From Planctomycetota bacterium (lineage in GTDB: Bacteria; Planctomycetota; Phycisphaerae; SM23-33), in contig DAOVZK010000006.1 in assembly GCA_030635145.1 (NCBI GenBank), forward strand, positions 1 to 64,000: a DNA stretch of 64,000 nucleotides. The letters run 5' to 3'. A program made the position numbers and the translations under genes. Numbering within the stretch: position 1 is the stretch's first letter; every line of letters starts with the position of its first letter. Below, in pieces: positions 39,651 to 56,050 of the stretch. A model generated the notes under the pieces. That model searched no databases. It was not told where the DNA came from and saw only the letters and a list, made by a program, of their open reading frames with translations.

Positions 39651-41543
39651 ATGGGAAATGAAAAAAAGACAGATTTATTTATTGGCAAATTGCTTGATTT
39701 GGCAAAAATTAAATTTGAACCAAATGGAAGTAATATAAAAGAAATTCAGGACGCATTGAAAACTGCTTCTAAAAAAGGAACAGGAAAAATTGGTTTCCCA
39801 GAATTTACCGCAAAATCAAAAGATTTTATAATCGTAATTGAAAATAAAGCAGATATTGAGAAACAGGCAGAATATAAAGATGACGAAAAGATTGAATTGT
39901 CAACCAAGACAAAATCAATTACAGATTATGCTGAAAATGGAGCATTGCATTATGCTAACGAAATAATAAAAAAGACTTCGTTTAAAAAAGTTTTTGCCTT
40001 TGGATGTTCGGGAGATGAAAAACACCACATAATCAGACCAATTTTCGTTGACGAAAAAGATTATAAATTACTGCAACCCATTGAAAATTTTGAAAATTTC
40101 TTTGAAGACAATATTGAAAAATATTACAGTGAGCAAGTGTTGGAGGAAACACCAACGGAAACGCTTGAACTCGAAGATATAATCAAAAAATCATCTGAAC
40201 TGCACGAATATTTAAGAAACTATGGGCAGTTGGGCGATAGTGAAAAACCGCTTGTTGTTTCAGCAATTCTTCTCGCCTTAAGAGAAAAATCCTTTGATAT
40301 AAATTCATTAACAGGTGATGACGTAAAAACGGACGGACAGAAAATATACAATGCTCTTTCAACTCATATGAAAAGGGTAAAAGTAAAACCTGAAACCAAG
40401 AAAGAGCAAGTTTTAAGTCAGTTTAATGTTGTAAAAGACCGAACAACATTAAATCAAGTGGATGAGCGACTTGCGAAAACACCTTTGAAATATTTTGCCG
40501 ATTTTCTGCAAAAAAATGTTTATGCAACTATTGTTGAAAATTCGCCCGAGGATGTTTTAGGTCGTTTTTACGGCGAATTTATTCGTTACAGCGGTGGAGA
40601 TGGACAAACTTTGGGAGTTGTACTAACACCAAGCCACATTACAGAATTGTTTTGCGATTTAATAGATTTGAAACCAACAGACACTGTATTTGACCCCTGT
40701 TGTGGAACAGGCGGTTTTTTAATTACCGCTATGAATAAAATGCTTGAACAAGCTAAACCAACAGAAAAAGAAATCATAAGAGCAGAAAAAATACATGGAA
40801 TTGAAATAAGAGAAGATATGTTTTCTATTGCCACCACGAATATGATTTTCAGGGGCGATGGAAAAAGTAATTTGATAAAAAATAATTTTTTAAAGCGAGA
40901 AACAGAAAAAATTAGAGCCAATAATTATTCTGTTGGTTTTATGAATCCGCCTTATTCGCAAGGAAAGGGGAAAGATACCGCTCATTTATCCGAAATTAAT
41001 TTTATCAAACACCTGCTAGATGGCTTGGCAGACGGTGGTAGATGTGTTGTTATTGTGCCACAATCTACAATGGTTGGTAATAAAAAAGAAGATAAGCAGG
41101 TAAAAAAACAAATTCTTAAAAATCATACACTTGAAGGAGTAATTACATTAAACAAAGAAACTTTTTACGGAGTAGGAACAAATCCGTGTATTGCAGTTTT
41201 TACTACTCATAAGCCACATCCAGAAAAAAAGTATTGCAAATTTGTAAACTTCGAGAATGATGGTTTTGAAGTGCATAAACACGTTGGATTAGTAGAAACA
41301 GAAAGAGCAAAAGAGAGAAAAGCCCACTTGCTTAATTGTTGGTTACACGATGCACCAGCCGAAAGTAAATTTATGGTAAAAGCTACCATATCAGCCCAAG
41401 ACGAATGGCTGCACTCGTTCTATTATTTTAACGATGAAATACCCAAAGAAGAAGATTTTGAAAACACAATTGCCAATTATCTCTCTTTTGAGTTTAATAT
41501 GCTTATACAAGGCAGAGAATATTTATTTGAAAATGCGGAATAA
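39651..41543 (+). CDS. Fused restriction nuclease / N6-adenine methyltransferase subunit
   Basis: This 630-residue protein combines a nuclease and a methyltransferase. At the N-terminus (about 40-75) FPEFTAKSKDFIIVIENKAD has the spacing of a PD-(D/E)xK nuclease (Asp ... ENK), as in HsdR_N-type or type IIG/BcgI-like enzymes. After a helical linker the N6-adenine methylase domain carries VFDPCCGTGGFLI (SAM binding) and MNPPYSQ (catalytic NPPY). The C-terminus (LIQGREYLFENAE) is helical. A separate specificity gene follows at once, so the complex resembles a BcgI-like type IIB or type I-like system without a translocase gene. AT-rich, clearly acquired. Confidence 0.85.
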   Translation: MGNEKKTDLFIGKLLDLAKIKFEPNGSNIKEIQDALKTASKKGTGKIGFPEFTAKSKDFIIVIENKADIEKQAEYKDDEKIELSTKTKSITDYAENGALHYANEIIKKTSFKKVFAFGCSGDEKHHIIRPIFVDEKDYKLLQPIENFENFFEDNIEKYYSEQVLEETPTETLELEDIIKKSSELHEYLRNYGQLGDSEKPLVVSAILLALREKSFDINSLTGDDVKTDGQKIYNALSTHMKRVKVKPETKKEQVLSQFNVVKDRTTLNQVDERLAKTPLKYFADFLQKNVYATIVENSPEDVLGRFYGEFIRYSGGDGQTLGVVLTPSHITELFCDLIDLKPTDTVFDPCCGTGGFLITAMNKMLEQAKPTEKEIIRAEKIHGIEIREDMFSIATTNMIFRGDGKSNLIKNNFLKRETEKIRANNYSVGFMNPPYSQGKGKDTAHLSEINFIKHLLDGLADGGRCVVIVPQSTMVGNKKEDKQVKKQILKNHTLEGVITLNKETFYGVGTNPCIAVFTTHKPHPEKKYCKFVNFENDGFEVHKHVGLVETERAKERKAHLLNCWLHDAPAESKFMVKATISAQDEWLHSFYYFNDEIPKEEDFENTIANYLSFEFNMLIQGREYLFENAE

Positions 41544-41544
41544 T

Positions 41545-42621
41545 ATGAAATTGTTATTGAAAAATAGAGAGTGGAAAGAGTTTTTTATTAGTGATATCTT
41601 TTCAAATATTCAAAGGGGGAAAAGACTAAAAAAAGGAGACCACAAAGCAGGTAGAACACCTTATGTTTCTTCCACTTCGATGAATAATGGAATTGATAAT
41701 TTTATTGGAAATAAAGAAAATGTTCGCGTATTTTCAAGCTGTTTGAGCCTTGCAAATAGTGGTAGTGTTGGGGCTTGTTTTTATCAACCGTTTAAATTTA
41801 TAGCAAGCGACCACGTAACAAAATTAGCGAATGACGAATTTAATAAATACATTTTACAATTTCTTTCAACAATAATTTCAAGGTTAGGTGAAAAATATAG
41901 TTTTAACAGAGAAATTAATGATACAAGAATAAAAAGAGAAAAAATTCATCTTCCTACTACACGCGAAGGAAAACCCGATTACGCATTTATGGAAGCCTAT
42001 ATGCGAGAAAAAGAACAAAAAAAAATAAAAGCATATAAAAACTATGTTTCAAAAAGAATAAGCAAATTAGAAAAGACTAAAAAGGTTGTTTCGATTGCAG
42101 AGAAAGAATGGGAAGAGTTTGAACTTGGAAAGATGTTTGAATTAATTCAAGGTAAATCAAAAGGTTTAAATCACTTAATTAAAACTAAAGCAGGGGTCAA
42201 TTATTTAGGTGCAACAAATCTTAACAATGGCGTTCTATGTCAGGTAAAAGAAGAACCAAGTTTAATCCAGAAAGGAAATTCAATAGCGTTCATTAGAAAT
42301 GGTGAGGGGTCTATGGGGTATTCTGTTTACAAAACTGAAAATTTTATTGCTACTTCTGATATATCTGTTGGTTATAATCCTAAACTAAATAGATATGTAG
42401 GGACATTTATTACAACAGTAGCCGACAAAGTTAGGGGAAAATATAATTTTGGCTACAAACGAAGCGGTAAAAGATTGGTAAAAGAAAAAATCTTACTTCC
42501 AATCGATGAAAATAAAGAGCCTGATTATAATTTTATGGAAAGTTATATGAAATGGATTGAATTGAATAAGTTGAAAGAGTATTTGAAGTATAAAAAATGC
42601 ACAATAAATCGTTGCACCTAA
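41545..42621 (+). CDS. Restriction-modification specificity subunit (HsdS-like)
   Basis: This 358-residue protein has two target-recognition halves. Each starts with a similar segment (KNREWKEFFISDIFSNIQRGKRL near 5; EKEWEEFELGKMFELIQGKSKGL near 190) and each ends with a similar signature (KREKIHLPTTREGKPDYAFME; VKEKILLPIDENKEPDYNFME) leading into a helical stretch with KKIKAYKNYV and KWIELNKLKEY. The duplicate layout is typical of S subunits that read bipartite sites. The ATG at 41545 lies one base after the stop of the previous gene; the track start is far inside it. The C-terminus reaches the island edge intact. Confidence 0.85.
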   Translation: MKLLLKNREWKEFFISDIFSNIQRGKRLKKGDHKAGRTPYVSSTSMNNGIDNFIGNKENVRVFSSCLSLANSGSVGACFYQPFKFIASDHVTKLANDEFNKYILQFLSTIISRLGEKYSFNREINDTRIKREKIHLPTTREGKPDYAFMEAYMREKEQKKIKAYKNYVSKRISKLEKTKKVVSIAEKEWEEFELGKMFELIQGKSKGLNHLIKTKAGVNYLGATNLNNGVLCQVKEEPSLIQKGNSIAFIRNGEGSMGYSVYKTENFIATSDISVGYNPKLNRYVGTFITTVADKVRGKYNFGYKRSGKRLVKEKILLPIDENKEPDYNFMESYMKWIELNKLKEYLKYKKCTINRCT

Positions 42622-44371: not shown

Positions 44372-44532
44372 TTAGAGCGATTAACGATTAAGATGCGGGA
44401 TGCAGGCGCCAGCGAGGACAAGGCTGATAAGGACGCTGAAGCAGGCATAGTAAGCTATGCCGATGCAAGCGGACGCAATCAGCCGACGCCGCAGCCAGCA
44501 TGAACCCCGCAGGTTAAGCGTTAGTTGCTCTA
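44372..44532. repeat. TTAGAGC-family structured repeat, copy 1
   Basis: It begins TTAGAGCGATTAACG and ends CGTTAGTTGCTCTA, terminal inverted repeats that pair. The core is GGACGCTGAAGCAGGCATAG-type: GGCATAG ... CTATGCC forms an apical hairpin flanked by GCGCCAGC and CAGCCAGC-like arms. Copies 2 and 3 lie at 46761-46906 (opposite orientation) and 49566-49726. It fills most of the 383-bp gap between rpoN and thiL. Confidence 0.75.
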
Positions 44533-45584: not shown

Positions 45585-46337
45585 TTAATGTCCGTTAAAA
45601 AATACGACGAGCAGGTCCCAGCAGATGTGCGAGCAGACAGCTACGCCGAATCCGCGCCAGGCAAACAGTACGCCCCACCACATTCCCGCCAGCGCCAAAA
45701 ATACGACACTGCCCCACCGAATCGCCGCCGCCCCGTGCAGCTGCGCGCCGGACAAATGGCATAGCGCGAACAAAATTCCCGAAACCACAATCGCCCCCAC
45801 CACCACGCGGTTTTCTTTGCGTTTCATCGCGTCGGTGAAGATCAAAAGCGCGATGCTGATGAAGACCATGCGGAACAGAAATTCTTCGTATACCCCTGCC
45901 CCGACAGATTCCAGCACGCCGCGCAGCATGGGGTGACTTTGCTCGCGGATTTGCGCCGGTACGGGAATTTTGCCCGTCATCCAGTTTGCTGCGATCAGCG
46001 GAAGAATCGAAATCGCGCCTTCGACGACCATTCCGATTATGGCGGTGAAGCTGATGTGATGTTTGTGTTTCCCTCGCCCGAGATGCATGAGATGCTGCGC
46101 GAACAGCACGACGAGTATGACGATGGCGGGGAGAAATTTGCCAGCCACGCCCATCATCGAAAAGACGTAACGCAGATATTCCGGCACCAGCAGCGCGCTG
46201 CCGAGCTTTGCCGAAAACGCATGAAAAAACAGCAGCAACCCCGCCACCAGCACCAGTTGATTCAACGGCCGATGAACCTCAGCCCCATAGCTGTGGTCGT
46301 CGGGTGCGAAAACGCATTGGTCTTTTTCTCGTTTCAT
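45585..46337 (-). CDS. CPBP-family intramembrane metalloprotease
   Basis: This 250-residue membrane protein has the CPBP/Rce1-type signatures: VYEEFLFRMV (EExxxR), a downstream FALCHLSG (FxxxH), and HICWD near the C-terminus. Hydrophobic spans are visible from residue 25 on. Such proteases act in prenyl-protein or bacteriocin processing, or as self-immunity proteins, and the substrate here is unknown. The ATG overlaps the stop of the ComEA-like gene by four bases (ATGA), so the two are coupled. Confidence 0.85.
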   Translation of the reverse strand: MKREKDQCVFAPDDHSYGAEVHRPLNQLVLVAGLLLFFHAFSAKLGSALLVPEYLRYVFSMMGVAGKFLPAIVILVVLFAQHLMHLGRGKHKHHISFTAIIGMVVEGAISILPLIAANWMTGKIPVPAQIREQSHPMLRGVLESVGAGVYEEFLFRMVFISIALLIFTDAMKRKENRVVVGAIVVSGILFALCHLSGAQLHGAAAIRWGSVVFLALAGMWWGVLFAWRGFGVAVCSHICWDLLVVFFNGH

Positions 46338-46735
46338 TGGCGGGGGCTTTCTTTTCGTTCTGACGGGAAAATCAGATACTCGCGATTTTTCTTCACCGTT
46401 TTCGGCCCGATCCCGTGGATTTTTTCCAGGTCGGCTGGAACGTCAAACGCACCCACACCGTGCTGCTGGCGATATGCGATGATCGCTTCTGCCCTAGTCG
46501 GTCCGATTCCGCTTAGTCGCTGAAGTGCCGCCGCCGCCGCCGTGTTGGGATCGATAAATTCGCGAGCCGCCCGAACTTTGGCAGCGTCTGCATTTGGGTA
46601 TTTCTCAAACCAGCAACGATCAGATAGTCCAACCGCGGCGATCCCGATCCACGCTGCTCCGACAATCGCAATCACCGCACAGAGATTGGGCTTTGATAAC
46701 CCAACATCCAAGTATGTGTGCATTCGGTTTGCCAT
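46334..46735 (-). CDS. ComEA-like helix-hairpin-helix protein
   Basis: This 133-residue protein has an N-terminal membrane span (NLCAVIAIVGAAWIGIAAVGL), a short linker, then two HhH motifs: LQRLSGIGPTRAEAIIAYRQ and LEKIHGIGPKTVKKNREYL. IDPNTAAAAALQRL is the usual lead-in (IDLNTAS...). This is the layout of ComEA, the double-strand DNA receptor of natural transformation, though short HhH proteins of this kind also occur in hosts without competence. It lacks an SLBB domain. It overlaps the CPBP protease gene downstream by four bases. A copy of the TTAGAGC repeat lies upstream. Confidence 0.82.
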   Translation of the reverse strand: MANRMHTYLDVGLSKPNLCAVIAIVGAAWIGIAAVGLSDRCWFEKYPNADAAKVRAAREFIDPNTAAAAALQRLSGIGPTRAEAIIAYRQQHGVGAFDVPADLEKIHGIGPKTVKKNREYLIFPSERKESPRQ

Positions 46736-46760
46736 TATAGTTATGTTTCCGCGGTCTATC

Positions 46761-46906
46761 TAGAGCAGTTACGATTAGCTGGCTGCGTCCGCTTGCATCG
46801 GCCCGTACGGGTCTGCTTCGGCGTCCTTACAAGCCTCACATTTTGCCGCCCCCGTTGGGGGTCACTGACGCAGAAACTGTAAAATTGCAATCTTAAAATG
46901 CTCTAA
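46761..46906. repeat. TTAGAGC-family structured repeat, copy 2 (inverted)
   Basis: TAGAGCAGTTACGATTAG opens and GCAATCTTAAAATGCTCTAA closes the element. Read on the minus strand the core is GGACGCCGAAGCAGACCCGT-ACGGGCCGATGCAAGCGGACGC. The apical stem is ACCCGT/ACGGGC(C) in place of GGCATAG/CTATGCC in the other copies, so pairing is kept while sequence changes. The element ends directly at the stop codon of the GH10-like gene. Confidence 0.72.
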
Positions 46907-48412
46907 TCATACAAACTTGTTGCGTGCAGCCTTGAGAGTTTGCATTTCCGTCAGTGCCATTTTTGGTGTCATGTCACTCGCGCAAAGCCCGCCGTTAGGA
47001 AGATGATGCGGTGATCCGTCGCTTAAGTCGCGCCAGCAGAGGCTGTCGACGAACGGTTTGCTGGCGGCTACCTTGTATACCGCGTGCAGCCATTCTGCCT
47101 GTAGCCGCTGCGACCACATAGCGTGCCAGGCCCCGGCGTTTCGCGCATGGGCTGCGCCGCTCCAGGCGTCGTTGCGATTTCCGCGCACGCTTGACGGCAC
47201 TTGGCAGGCCGTCAAATGCAGCGTCTTGCCTTGTACCAAAAATTCGTCCATCAACGAACTGATCTGCATCAGATCGCGAGCATAGTACCCGTCGCAGGCG
47301 GCACCCATTTGCAGATGGATTCCGAACGCGTCGCATTGGACGTCGTTCTGGAAGGCCATGTCGGCGTAGAGCATCGGTGGGATGGTGCGTTGGTTTCGCG
47401 CGTAGTATTCGCCCCATGGATGCGCCAGGTCGATCAGCACGGTGCTGTCGGGTGCGAGTTTTTTGACGAACCGGCAGCACGTTCGGGTCAGTTCGGTGAT
47501 CTGCTCAAAGTTCAGATTGTACGAGTTAATCGCCGCCAGTCCGGAAACGACTTTCCACAGCTGCACCTTGCCGTCGTAACGCTCGATGACGCCCCGCAGG
47601 TGGTGGAAGATTCGTTTTTGCAGTTCGTCGAAATCGTTCCGCCAAAACGCCAGCCATTCCGGTAGAAACCCGTCCTCGAAGCTAAGCAGCGGCCCGGCGT
47701 GAACGGGAACGTTTTTTTCCGTCGCCCAATCAATCCAGCTGTCGACTTCTTCGAAGCGAAATTGCGTTTCGGCCGGTTCGACGTTGGCCCAGATTATTGG
47801 AACCGAAACGAAATTTGCCGACTCGCTGATAATTTCACCCCCGGTCGTGATATCCGCGCTTGGGTTGACCATGATTCCGAGTGTCGGCTTTGGTTTTCCT
47901 AACCGCACGCGTTTTTTTGTCAGCAGCTCGGCGTGGAACAGCGCCATTTTTTCACCGAACAGCATTGCTTTGTTCAAGACGTCGTCGGCGATGACCGACC
48001 CGGCCGCGGGGTCGGCGGCGCTGGTGTTTAATGCCTCTATGAACCCCGCCGTGATCGCGCGAAATTCGTTATTCAACCCCTCGGATGTTTTGGTGTCGAA
48101 CAGGCCCCAGTCTTCGCGCTTTTGATAGAGTCGCATGATTTGCCCGCGGGCGAGTTCGAGGTTCAGCGAGTATGGTTTGGCTCGCGGAGTTAACCGCGTC
48201 GTCGATAGCAAGTACACCCCGCAGCTGTTTGTCGCCCACAGCACCGCCAACCCGCTGGGCCCGCTGGTGTTTTTTACGCAGGTAATTTCGTTGCCCTCGC
48301 AAAGCAGGTCGGCACGCAGGGGGATTGCGTCCTGTCCGAACACATACGATCCAGACAGGTCGACACTTTTGGCGGGGGCACCGTGTTTATAAGCTTCAAA
48401 CTTCAACATCAT
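46907..48412 (-). CDS. GH10-fold protein without catalytic glutamates
   Basis: This 501-residue protein has an N-terminal beta domain of about 170 residues, then a TIM barrel that follows family 10 xylanases strand by strand. VPIIWANVEPAETQFRFEEVD matches the ENEMKWE...EP...F.F...D region, VPVHAGPLLSFEDGFLPEWL the GHTLVWH...P.W region, and CDAFGIHLQMG the DAIGIQ.H region. In strand 4, where WDVVNE carries the acid/base Glu, it reads LWKVVSG. In strand 7, where TELD carries the nucleophile, it reads LTACQV. Both catalytic Glu are missing, so it should not hydrolyse glycans by the retaining mechanism; a binding or altered role is inferred. No signal peptide is visible. Confidence 0.68.
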   Translation of the reverse strand: MMLKFEAYKHGAPAKSVDLSGSYVFGQDAIPLRADLLCEGNEITCVKNTSGPSGLAVLWATNSCGVYLLSTTRLTPRAKPYSLNLELARGQIMRLYQKREDWGLFDTKTSEGLNNEFRAITAGFIEALNTSAADPAAGSVIADDVLNKAMLFGEKMALFHAELLTKKRVRLGKPKPTLGIMVNPSADITTGGEIISESANFVSVPIIWANVEPAETQFRFEEVDSWIDWATEKNVPVHAGPLLSFEDGFLPEWLAFWRNDFDELQKRIFHHLRGVIERYDGKVQLWKVVSGLAAINSYNLNFEQITELTRTCCRFVKKLAPDSTVLIDLAHPWGEYYARNQRTIPPMLYADMAFQNDVQCDAFGIHLQMGAACDGYYARDLMQISSLMDEFLVQGKTLHLTACQVPSSVRGNRNDAWSGAAHARNAGAWHAMWSQRLQAEWLHAVYKVAASKPFVDSLCWRDLSDGSPHHLPNGGLCASDMTPKMALTEMQTLKAARNKFV

Positions 48413-48839: not shown

Positions 48840-49556
48840 ATGCAAAAGACAAGAACTTTTCTCGTTACGTTGTTTGTTGTATGTGCTTTAACTACCGTGT
48901 CTTGGGGCTGGACGCCCCTGCCAGCCGTCACTCATTATAACATGGCCACAAGAGTTTTGGACTACTCAACAATGGACGACTATGTCGATCAATTTGACGA
49001 TATGGGCTTGAATTACAACAGCATAGTTTCTTATGCTGCCAACGAACCGTCGGATCCACACATCGGGTATTCCGGGTTGTCCAATCAGTCCTATCTATCC
49101 TGGGACCTGAATAACGAACAGGTCGGGCGACTGATTCACTGCGCCAGCGACAACAGTGTCTCATCGCACTGGGGCATTGGTCCGTGGTGGAGTGAATTTG
49201 CCATTGAGGGCAAAGCGGCTACAATGTCGGGACCGGCAATGAGTTCCCCGTTTACTGGGACATATTCACAGAAAATGTCGGCGTTCTATTCCGCCCAGGT
49301 GTCACTTAACAACACCTATACCGCCTGGTTTAACACCCAGTGGTGGCCAACCTTTGCCCCAACCAGTTACGTAAACACGGGTTTGTTAAATGGGATGCGA
49401 ATGACCGAAGCTGTACTCATCGCATTTTTCGATTATCACCTGCAGGAAAGTGCAATGGCACCGGCGGGTTCGCCTGTTCCGGAACCGGCAACGCTTGCGT
49501 TGCTTGGTGTTGGACTGGGAGCCTTGGCTGCCAAACGACGAAAACGTAAGAAGTAA
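48840..49556 (+). CDS. PEP-CTERM protein with zinc-phospholipase-C-like pattern
   Basis: This 238-residue exported protein has a signal peptide (TFLVTLFVVCALTTVSWGW) and a C-terminal sorting signal: VPEPATLALLGVGLGALAA, then RRKRKK. The middle carries a spaced His/Asp/His pattern, LIHCASDNSVSSHWG, followed by WWSEFAIEG. This is the HxxxDxxxxxH...E arrangement of zinc-dependent phospholipase C and S1/P1 nucleases. THYNMATRVLD at residue 31 fits the other N-terminal zinc His, right after the probable mature Trp (WTPL). The fold is an inference from spacing. The exosortase system that anchors it is not in this window. SD AAGGAG precedes the ATG. Confidence 0.75.
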   Translation: MQKTRTFLVTLFVVCALTTVSWGWTPLPAVTHYNMATRVLDYSTMDDYVDQFDDMGLNYNSIVSYAANEPSDPHIGYSGLSNQSYLSWDLNNEQVGRLIHCASDNSVSSHWGIGPWWSEFAIEGKAATMSGPAMSSPFTGTYSQKMSAFYSAQVSLNNTYTAWFNTQWWPTFAPTSYVNTGLLNGMRMTEAVLIAFFDYHLQESAMAPAGSPVPEPATLALLGVGLGALAAKRRKRKK

Positions 49557-49807: not shown

Positions 49808-50761
49808 CTACGCTTTGCGTTTTAGGATTGCTTGGCAGGCTTCGGTGATGTGTTTCGGCCCGAAGCAGTGCTTGTCGAACAAGTAACCCTCGGTGGCCAC
49901 TTCACCGAACTGGTCGTTGATGCCCAATCGCTGAATCGGAACCGGATAATTCTCGCCGAGCGCTTCGCATACCGCGCTGCCCAGCCCACCGACGATGTTC
50001 TGGTTTTCGACCGTTACGACCGCGCCGGTTTTCTTCGCCGATGCGACTAGCGCTTCGATATCCAGCGGTTTTACCGACGGGCAGTGCAGCAGATCCACAC
50101 CCACACCGTTGGCGGACAGTTCGTCGGCGACATCGCGTGCGAACTTCGTCATGAAACCCGTCGACACGAGCGTCACGTCGGAACCTTCGCGAAGCACGAC
50201 AGCCTTACCCGGTGTGAAGGTGGCGTTGTCGTCGAAAATTTTGGGCAGTTTCGGGCGAACCAACTGCATGTAGGCCGGCTGATCGGAAGACGCCATCTGG
50301 CGCAACATCGCCCGCAATTCGTAAACGTCGCAGGGTGAGTACACGTGCATATTCGGCATGGCCCGCATGATCGCCAAATCCTGGAAGCACATGTGCGTTC
50401 CCCCGTTGGGGCCTTGCGTAATGCCCGGGGCAGTGCCGACGATTTTGACGTTGTTGTTCGCGTACGCCACCGAGATGGTGATCTGATCGTATACTCGCCG
50501 CGAGGCAAAGCAGCTGAAACTTGCACAGAAGGGAATCTTGCCTTCCAGCGCGAGGCCTGCACCGACGCAGATCATGTTAGCCTCGGCCACGCCGCACTCG
50601 ACGAAGTTGTCGGGATGCGCGTCGGAAACTTTCGGGACAGTGCCGGATGCTCTACCGAGGTCGGCTTCGAGGCACATCACGGCGGGGTTGGTTTCCATCA
50701 GTTCGTTGAGGGTTTGAGCGTAAACTGCTCGCATTTCCATTTCGTGTAATTCAGCCATCAT
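49808..50761 (-). CDS. Transketolase, C-terminal subunit
   Basis: This 317-residue protein corresponds to the pyrimidine-binding and C-terminal domains of transketolase: CLEADLGRASGTVPK, CGVAEANMICVGAGLALEG (the catalytic Glu of the PYR domain) and GPNGGTHMCFQDLAIMRA. The TPP-binding GDG domain is encoded separately by the gene at 50905, 143 bp upstream. Split transketolases of this type are common in anaerobes, archaea and many planctomycetes. Together the two subunits move two-carbon units in the pentose phosphate pathway. Start is ATG 50761 or 50758. Confidence 0.92.
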   Translation of the reverse strand: MMAELHEMEMRAVYAQTLNELMETNPAVMCLEADLGRASGTVPKVSDAHPDNFVECGVAEANMICVGAGLALEGKIPFCASFSCFASRRVYDQITISVAYANNNVKIVGTAPGITQGPNGGTHMCFQDLAIMRAMPNMHVYSPCDVYELRAMLRQMASSDQPAYMQLVRPKLPKIFDDNATFTPGKAVVLREGSDVTLVSTGFMTKFARDVADELSANGVGVDLLHCPSVKPLDIEALVASAKKTGAVVTVENQNIVGGLGSAVCEALGENYPVPIQRLGINDQFGEVATEGYLFDKHCFGPKHITEACQAILKRKA

Positions 50762-50774
50762 TCTACCTTTTTTT

Positions 50775-50903
50775 CAAGTTATCAGTTGTCAGTCATCAGT
50801 TATCAGTAAAACAAGAATGCTTCCTTGTAAGTGTCTTGTGTCAGCAATCTGTGGTGTAGCCTTTTCTTGCTGATCACTGACTACTGATAGCTGACAACTT
50901 CGT
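50775..50903. repeat. TTATCAGT-type dispersed repeat, copy 2
   Basis: CAAGTTATCAGTTGTCAGTC on one side and GACTACTGATAGCTGACAAC on the other form an imperfect inverted repeat around a core with CTTGCTGATCACTGA. The ends match the element at 36421-36533. It separates the two transketolase genes. Confidence 0.7.
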
Positions 50904-50904
50904 T

Positions 50905-51756
50905 TTAGTACGGAAGTTCGATGTCTGCGTTGCTCATCGCGCTGAGATATTTTTCGCGGGCGGCTTCGTCAGGAACTTTAATATTATGGCTGCCGATGGT
51001 GTTCTCGATTTCGCTGCAGCCTTTACCTTTAATCGTGTGTGCGATAATCATCGCCGGTTTGCCGGTGACGTTTTTTGCGGCGGTAAGCTTTTCGTACAGG
51101 TCGTCCCGGTTGTGTCCGTCCATTTCGAAGACTTCCCAGCCGAACGACTGCCATTTTTCCACCAACGGTTCCAGCCCTAGAATATCGTCGGTGAACCCGT
51201 CGATCTGCAGCTTGTTGTAGTCGGTGATGGCTACGAGGTTGTCGAGATTCTTGTGGGCGGCGAACATGGCGGCTTCCCAGTTTTGTCCTTCGTTGGTTTC
51301 GCCGTCGCCGATGATGCAGAAAACGGTGTGATTCTGCTTGTCGAGCTTGGCGGCCAGCGCCATTCCGCACGCCACGCTAAGGCCCTGCCCGAGCGAACCG
51401 GTCGTCGCATCGATACCGGGAACGGTGCGTTCATCGGCATGCGAGGGGAGTTTTGTACCGTCGGCGTTGAGCGTTGGGAGCCAGTCTTTCGGGAAATATC
51501 CCTTATACGCCAGGGCTGCGTACCACACCGGGGCACCGTGGCCCTTGGACATCACCAAACGGTCGCGGTTTGCCCACTTGGGGTTGCTCGGGTCGACGTT
51601 CATTACGCGGTAGTACAGCGTGATGAAGGTTTCAACGAGGCTCAGTGCCCCGCCGAGGTGGCCGGACCCTGCACAGCAGACCATGTCGGTGATCACGTAC
51701 CGCAGTTCTTCCGTCAGTAAATCGAATTTTTTCGCGTCAAATGCTTCGTTGTTCAT
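50905..51756 (-). CDS. Transketolase, N-terminal subunit
   Basis: This 283-residue protein carries the TPP pyrophosphate-binding domain: SGHLGGALSLVETFITLYY, DRLVMSKGHGAPVWY, GSLGQGLSVACGMALA and the TPP motif IIGDGETNEGQNWEAAM (GDG ... N). It pairs with the C-terminal subunit encoded downstream. The ATG at 51756 is chosen because AAGGAAAGG precedes it; the track start is nine residues longer. The 143-bp repeat-filled gap between the halves is unusually long for two subunits of one enzyme. Confidence 0.93.
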   Translation of the reverse strand: MNNEAFDAKKFDLLTEELRYVITDMVCCAGSGHLGGALSLVETFITLYYRVMNVDPSNPKWANRDRLVMSKGHGAPVWYAALAYKGYFPKDWLPTLNADGTKLPSHADERTVPGIDATTGSLGQGLSVACGMALAAKLDKQNHTVFCIIGDGETNEGQNWEAAMFAAHKNLDNLVAITDYNKLQIDGFTDDILGLEPLVEKWQSFGWEVFEMDGHNRDDLYEKLTAAKNVTGKPAMIIAHTIKGKGCSEIENTIGSHNIKVPDEAAREKYLSAMSNADIELPY

Positions 51757-51967
51757 CTTGCCTTTCCTTATGGAATTTTTCACTCATTCATGTTGATATC
51801 CTTGCTCTAGCAAGCCGAGCATTCTAACACGTAACCCCGCCAAATGACTACCCAAAATTTACGAGATTCCCGCGATTGATGTTCTGCGAAGCGCGGCGGG
51901 GATGTTGAGGAATATCCGGCAGAGCTTGCGGATTTTGTCGATTGCGACTACAATCCCCCGGATATTA

Positions 51968-55901: not shown

Positions 55902-55955
55902 CTATACAAGGGCGCCGAGATGGCCGCGGCGTTTTATGCAATCCTCGCGAGTTAG
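55902..55955 (+). pseudogene. Duplicated 3' end of the M20 peptidase gene
   Basis: The first 32 bases match 55613-55644 exactly; the rest codes for FYAILAS where the gene has FYQILAD, with several changes only at third positions. It reads LYKGAEMAAAFYAILAS and a stop in the same relative frame. It is either a remnant of a tandem M20 copy or a tail copied during insertion of the element between the two. Confidence 0.75.
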
Positions 55956-56050
55956 AGCATTTTTAAATTACAATTGCACAATTTCACAGTTCCCCCGTGC
56001 CAGCCTCGCCAACGCCCGCATCTACACAACATTATTCATGGGACAGAGTA

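Follow-up and report, generated by a model that had tools for sequence, protein, structure and literature searches.

The window, as we call the whole stretch of 64,000 nucleotides analysed here, encodes on its minus strand a xylanase-like protein of 501 amino acids, designated here pseudo-GH10, which is separated by a dispersed intergenic repeat from the next gene downstream, coding for a ComEA-like protein (Table 1). Divergent from the pseudo-GH10 gene, a PEP-CTERM sorted protein is encoded at 48840-49556 (matches to TIGR02595/PF07589), and two adjacent minus-strand open reading frames at 49808-51783 resemble, as judged from the reading frames only, the halves of a split transketolase. A block of low GC content (39651-42621; 33% versus about 54% around it) is likely horizontally acquired, and its open reading frames, again as read from the frames only, resemble a type I restriction-modification methylase and a specificity subunit.

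Table 1. Coordinates of the pseudo-GH10 gene, its parts, and adjacent features in the window.
Feature	Position	Strand	Evidence
GH10-fold pseudo-glycosidase, 501 aa, cytoplasmic	46907..48412	minus	ORF; Pfam GH10; AF2/Foldseek; 293/296 class genomes
N-terminal domain, residues 1-175: beta-sandwich, then three long helices	47888..48412	minus	AF2 pLDDT 96
Most conserved stretch, residues 71-107, TTRLPeRxxPYxLxxELARxxLMxxxxKxEDWxLFD	48092..48202	minus	87-member alignment
GH10-type TIM barrel, residues 176-494	46931..47887	minus	hhalign 172-494; strand/helix order in AF2 model
Acid/base site, lost: S290-G291 in place of the N-E of GH10	47540..47545	minus	alignment
Nucleophile site, lost: T401-A402 in place of the T-E of GH10	47207..47212	minus	alignment
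Intergenic dispersed repeat separating the pseudo-GH10 and ComEA-like genes, with ends of TTAGAGC / TAGAGC type	46760..46906	.	10 genomic places
ComEA-like protein, one apparent TM segment and helix-hairpin-helix, next gene downstream	46334..46735	minus	HHH_3 E 5.7e-18

The preliminary description of this locus had pointed to a TTAGAGC repeat ending at the stop codon of the gene. The heptamer (46900-46906, minus) is indeed immediately adjacent to the stop codon, but it is unrelated to the gene and is the end of the intergenic repeat. Seven copies are seen in the window versus 4.0 expected, a number reached in 12 of 100 shuffles and thus near chance, and a role as a gene-linked signal was rejected. 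The 2.38-Mb assembly contains this repeat, of approximately 150 bp, at 10 places, with several copies possessing the same TTAGAGC-like end, and further copies in the window are found at 44372-44483 and at about 55952-55990. It resembles a small non-autonomous mobile element or a REP-like one.

As to the fold of the protein, multiple lines of evidence place it with the GH10 enzymes. Its match to the Pfam GH10 profile (PF00331) scores 37.1 bits (cut-off 22.1 bits) and is confined to residues 208-290, while the profile-profile comparison (hhalign) of the family with the GH10 proteins of related genomes extends over residues 172-494 (E 1e-34, P 99.9). GH10 xylanases are also the best PDB matches by sequence. 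The AF2 model, built from an alignment with 87 relatives, has a pLDDT of 97 and a pTM of 0.94, and the best 50 Foldseek matches in the PDB are GH10 xylanases or designs on the GH10 fold (TM normalised to target 0.62-0.76). Pfam, hhalign, AF2 and Foldseek agree on a GH10 (beta/alpha)8 barrel, as the preliminary description had proposed. A better match to a different barrel family was looked for and not found: 81 of the 87 family members match Pfam GH10, and the matches to GH42 (12 members) and GH35 (two members) are weak, so both families are ruled out, the fold search also leading to GH10. A phage or defence protein was likewise ruled out (no PHROGs or PADLOC match), and no consistent fusion partner of the family was recognised. 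The open reading frame is intact, and no ATG, GTG or TTG precedes the annotated start in frame, which excludes a hidden signal peptide; the lack of a signal peptide, stated before for this one protein, extends to the entire family.

Inside the barrel, the catalytic apparatus is not recognisable. When the two profiles are aligned, the GH10 motif WDVVNE pairs with WKVVSG, and TELD pairs with TACQ, placing G291 and A402 opposite the catalytic glutamates, both of which are consequently gone, the motifs having been correctly read in the preliminary description. Among 81 class members, position 291 is occupied by Gly (74), Ser (6) or Ala (1), never by Glu. The question of whether homologues share the substitutions can be answered positively: SG is the class consensus (S290 in 63/81, G291 in 74/81), and TA is the commonest state (T401 in 60/81, A402 in 39/81). 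In most sequences outside the class, the nucleophile column is affected by a one-residue deletion. The loss also reaches further. Ten active-site columns were compared, through alignments and not superposed coordinates, comprising both catalytic glutamates, the Asn preceding the first of them, two His, one Gln, two Trp, and the Asn-Asp of strand 5 (in order H, W, N, E, N, D, Q, H, E, W), and the GH10 residues in these columns are retained in 0-12% of 51 pseudo-GH10 sequences, versus 88-100% for the scaffold residues G179, W208, W253, W286, and K484. Judged from these alignments, the entire GH10 catalytic site is lost, and the protein very probably performs no GH10 chemistry. Replacement of the missing residues by glutamates from elsewhere in the cleft had been considered as well, and, by alignment, no new invariant acid specific to the family is found in the barrel. 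Those residues of the barrel that are invariant also occur in active-like sister proteins or true GH10s, and they look structural. A comparison of conservation at the cleft and at the bottom of the barrel did not separate active from inactive GH10s; as the true GH10s also display no difference, it is uninformative with regard to a retained pocket.

The N-terminal part presents a different picture. Modelled alone, residues 1-174 also fold with high confidence (pLDDT 96); however, no PDB match was detected by Foldseek at E<=0.001, the beta-sandwich matches obtained being insignificant (best E 0.025), and Pfam matches to the protein are found only within residues 208-290. With no match in either Pfam or the PDB, this domain is novel. 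The family-specific near-invariant residues are located here, with residues 71-107 reaching a relative entropy of 2.85 bits in the class versus 2.2-2.4 bits for parts of the barrel, and T71, L83, E86, and R89 being invariant in the 87-member alignment. Such conservation points to the N-terminal part as the putative functional surface.

The distribution of the gene is remarkably dense in the class, which we take to be Phycisphaerae. It is present in 293 of the 296 class genomes with completeness of at least 90%, representing 211 of 211 genera, nearly always as a single full copy, additional matches being either split matches or weak matches to secreted GH10s. It is carried by 57 of 60 relatives, and a survey of 392 genomes from across the phylum Planctomycetota yields a family match in 92, the weakest of these matches being secreted GH10s. 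In one surveyed genome (G375, contig C1), the family member is located at 4947185-4948588 on the minus strand. A scan of genome contigs with peptide patterns gave a single locus. The frame is open and full-length in the genomes searched, and the dN/dS values for congeneric pairs (0.03-0.20) are indicative of purifying selection. Thus a homologue of an enzyme family devoid of the catalytic residues is maintained by selection, as befits a pseudoenzyme and not a pseudogene.

Relatives that look active are encoded by other planctomycetes. Two of these, L135 and L139, keep both the N-E and the T-E pairs (NEAHSW/ITELG and NEMHDW/ITEMG, respectively). They share with the pseudo-GH10 family the three-part layout (an N-terminal domain, long helices, and the barrel), as well as R379, D380, Q438, and D465, but differ from it, in addition to the catalytic pairs, in possessing an ADN/ADQ-G-GY motif in the N-terminal domain in place of TTRLPERxxPY. 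A third protein, L138 (L138:8607-10112), has an intact acid/base site (NEMHDW) and a Lys at the nucleophile position (ITKMG), possibly a half-way state or an independent loss. In the barrel tree, rooted on the true GH10s, these relatives together with the true GH10s are split from all the pseudo-GH10 members with 100% ultrafast bootstrap, and several inner branches of the pseudo-GH10 group are poorly supported. The split is consistent with one ancient loss of catalysis, and this loss fits a date before the class parted from the other planctomycete group, probably Planctomycetia. The shared layout and the well-supported split both suggest descent from an active ancestor.

Based on these data, we propose that pseudo-GH10 is a cytoplasmic protein combining the N-terminal domain with a GH10-type barrel that does not carry out GH10 chemistry, and that it would have originated from an intracellular GH10-like ancestor in which catalysis was lost once, prior to the split of the two main planctomycete groups. 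Its present role would be in binding instead of cutting, with a conserved partner mainly contacting the N-terminal domain and the hinge (residues 71-107), and with the barrel serving as a scaffold or a ligand pocket. Binding, as opposed to a new reaction, is the mode of action that we favour, with some reservation.

One alternative is a neo-functionalised enzyme, in which GH10 chemistry gave way to another reaction on an intracellular substrate, with the help of residues such as H/N293, E335, R379-D380, or the invariant E86/R89. The conservation of these residues in the class and their position after barrel strands speak for it, and retention in nearly every genome is typical of core enzymes. 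Several class-conserved polar residues are also found on the cleft-end loops (H/N293, E335, R379, D380, S407, W429, and W433), and these could serve a new reaction. However, E335 (as E or D), R379, D380, and D465 cannot be considered new, as they are also present in the active-like relatives, and the barrel offers no new invariant acid. We consider this scenario unlikely.

Another scenario, which appears quite improbable, is suggested by the gene neighbourhood, and it would have pseudo-GH10 act with the downstream ComEA-like protein in DNA uptake, for example as a cytoplasmic competence regulator. In 27 of 31 class loci, distributed over many families, the ComEA-like gene is found directly 3' and in the same orientation. 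No protein other than its product passes the HHH_3 cut-off in this genome, and another contig carries the gene for a ComEC-like protein. However, the pairing is found in none of the 30 loci outside the class, even though pseudo-GH10 is present there, and the two proteins would occupy different compartments. The neighbour with the wider distribution is purC (encoding SAICAR synthase, recognised from sequence), adjacent and divergent in 17 of the 30 loci outside the class and nearby on the opposite strand in 12 class loci, adjacency not being constant. This pattern suggests an old purC/pseudo-GH10 arrangement, to which comEA was added in the class. The linkage to ComEA is to be taken as a lead rather than as evidence of function.

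Persistence of glycosidase activity through an unusual mechanism, either substrate-assisted or employing one remaining acid, is very improbable: the barrel is kept, and one class member, L113 (L113:9372-10820), does possess a Glu at the nucleophile column (VSELKAP), along with Lys-Gly at the acid/base position, but the other conserved active-site residues are also lost, and in most sequences outside the class the nucleophile column itself is deleted. Finally, a decaying gene, to which the loss of catalytic residues might point, is refuted by the open, full-length frames, the low dN/dS values, and the presence in nearly all class genomes, in agreement with the original view of a maintained gene.

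Pseudoenzymes derived from glycosidases have precedents, such as the GH18 chi-lectins and narbonin. Another example is the GH28 pseudoenzymes of beetles (PMC6549527). In all of these, as in pseudo-GH10, the glycosidase scaffold has outlasted catalysis; however, they are mostly secreted and represent paralogues in multigene families, while pseudo-GH10 is encoded by a near-universal, mostly single-copy core gene and is cytoplasmic. Compared to the GH10 xylanases (PF00331), it shares the barrel fold, the scaffold residues, a highly significant profile-profile match, and the top PDB fold matches, but differs in the replacement of the catalytic glutamates and of the remaining active-site set, in the cytoplasmic location, and in the extra N-terminal domain of about 175 residues. 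We found no description of this family in the literature, and the main text of an extensive survey of carbohydrate enzymes in planctomycetes (PMC11131199) features GH10 only as xylanases in multi-module enzymes. What is added here to the preliminary description is the loss of the whole active site, the near-universality in the class, the active-looking relatives, and the N-terminal domain that holds the most conserved part. There is also a practical consequence: as pseudo-GH10 scores over the Pfam cut-off, it is automatically annotated as GH10, and counts of xylan-degradation genes are inflated. Pseudo-GH10 is the only GH10 match in the genome to which the window belongs, and 14 of the 20 related genomes with a PF00331 match possess none besides this family.

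In conclusion, the current evidence is best read as indicating a core pseudoenzyme of the whole class, mis-annotated as a xylanase, that resides in the cytoplasm and functions without catalysis, in binding or as a scaffold. More tentatively, and only as a possibility, a single ancient conversion may have made a core protein of xylanase fold, with its hitherto undescribed N-terminal domain, into an intracellular sensor, a scaffold, or a new enzyme, on which the whole class would depend for a conserved, planctomycete-specific cell process. Saturating transposon data exist for one planctomycete (PMC10632474). The family offers a clear example of glycosidase chemistry that was apparently lost only once, in the distant past, and active-looking relatives are at hand for comparison. 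Its distribution, nearly as universal as that of housekeeping genes, implies a core function in these bacteria.
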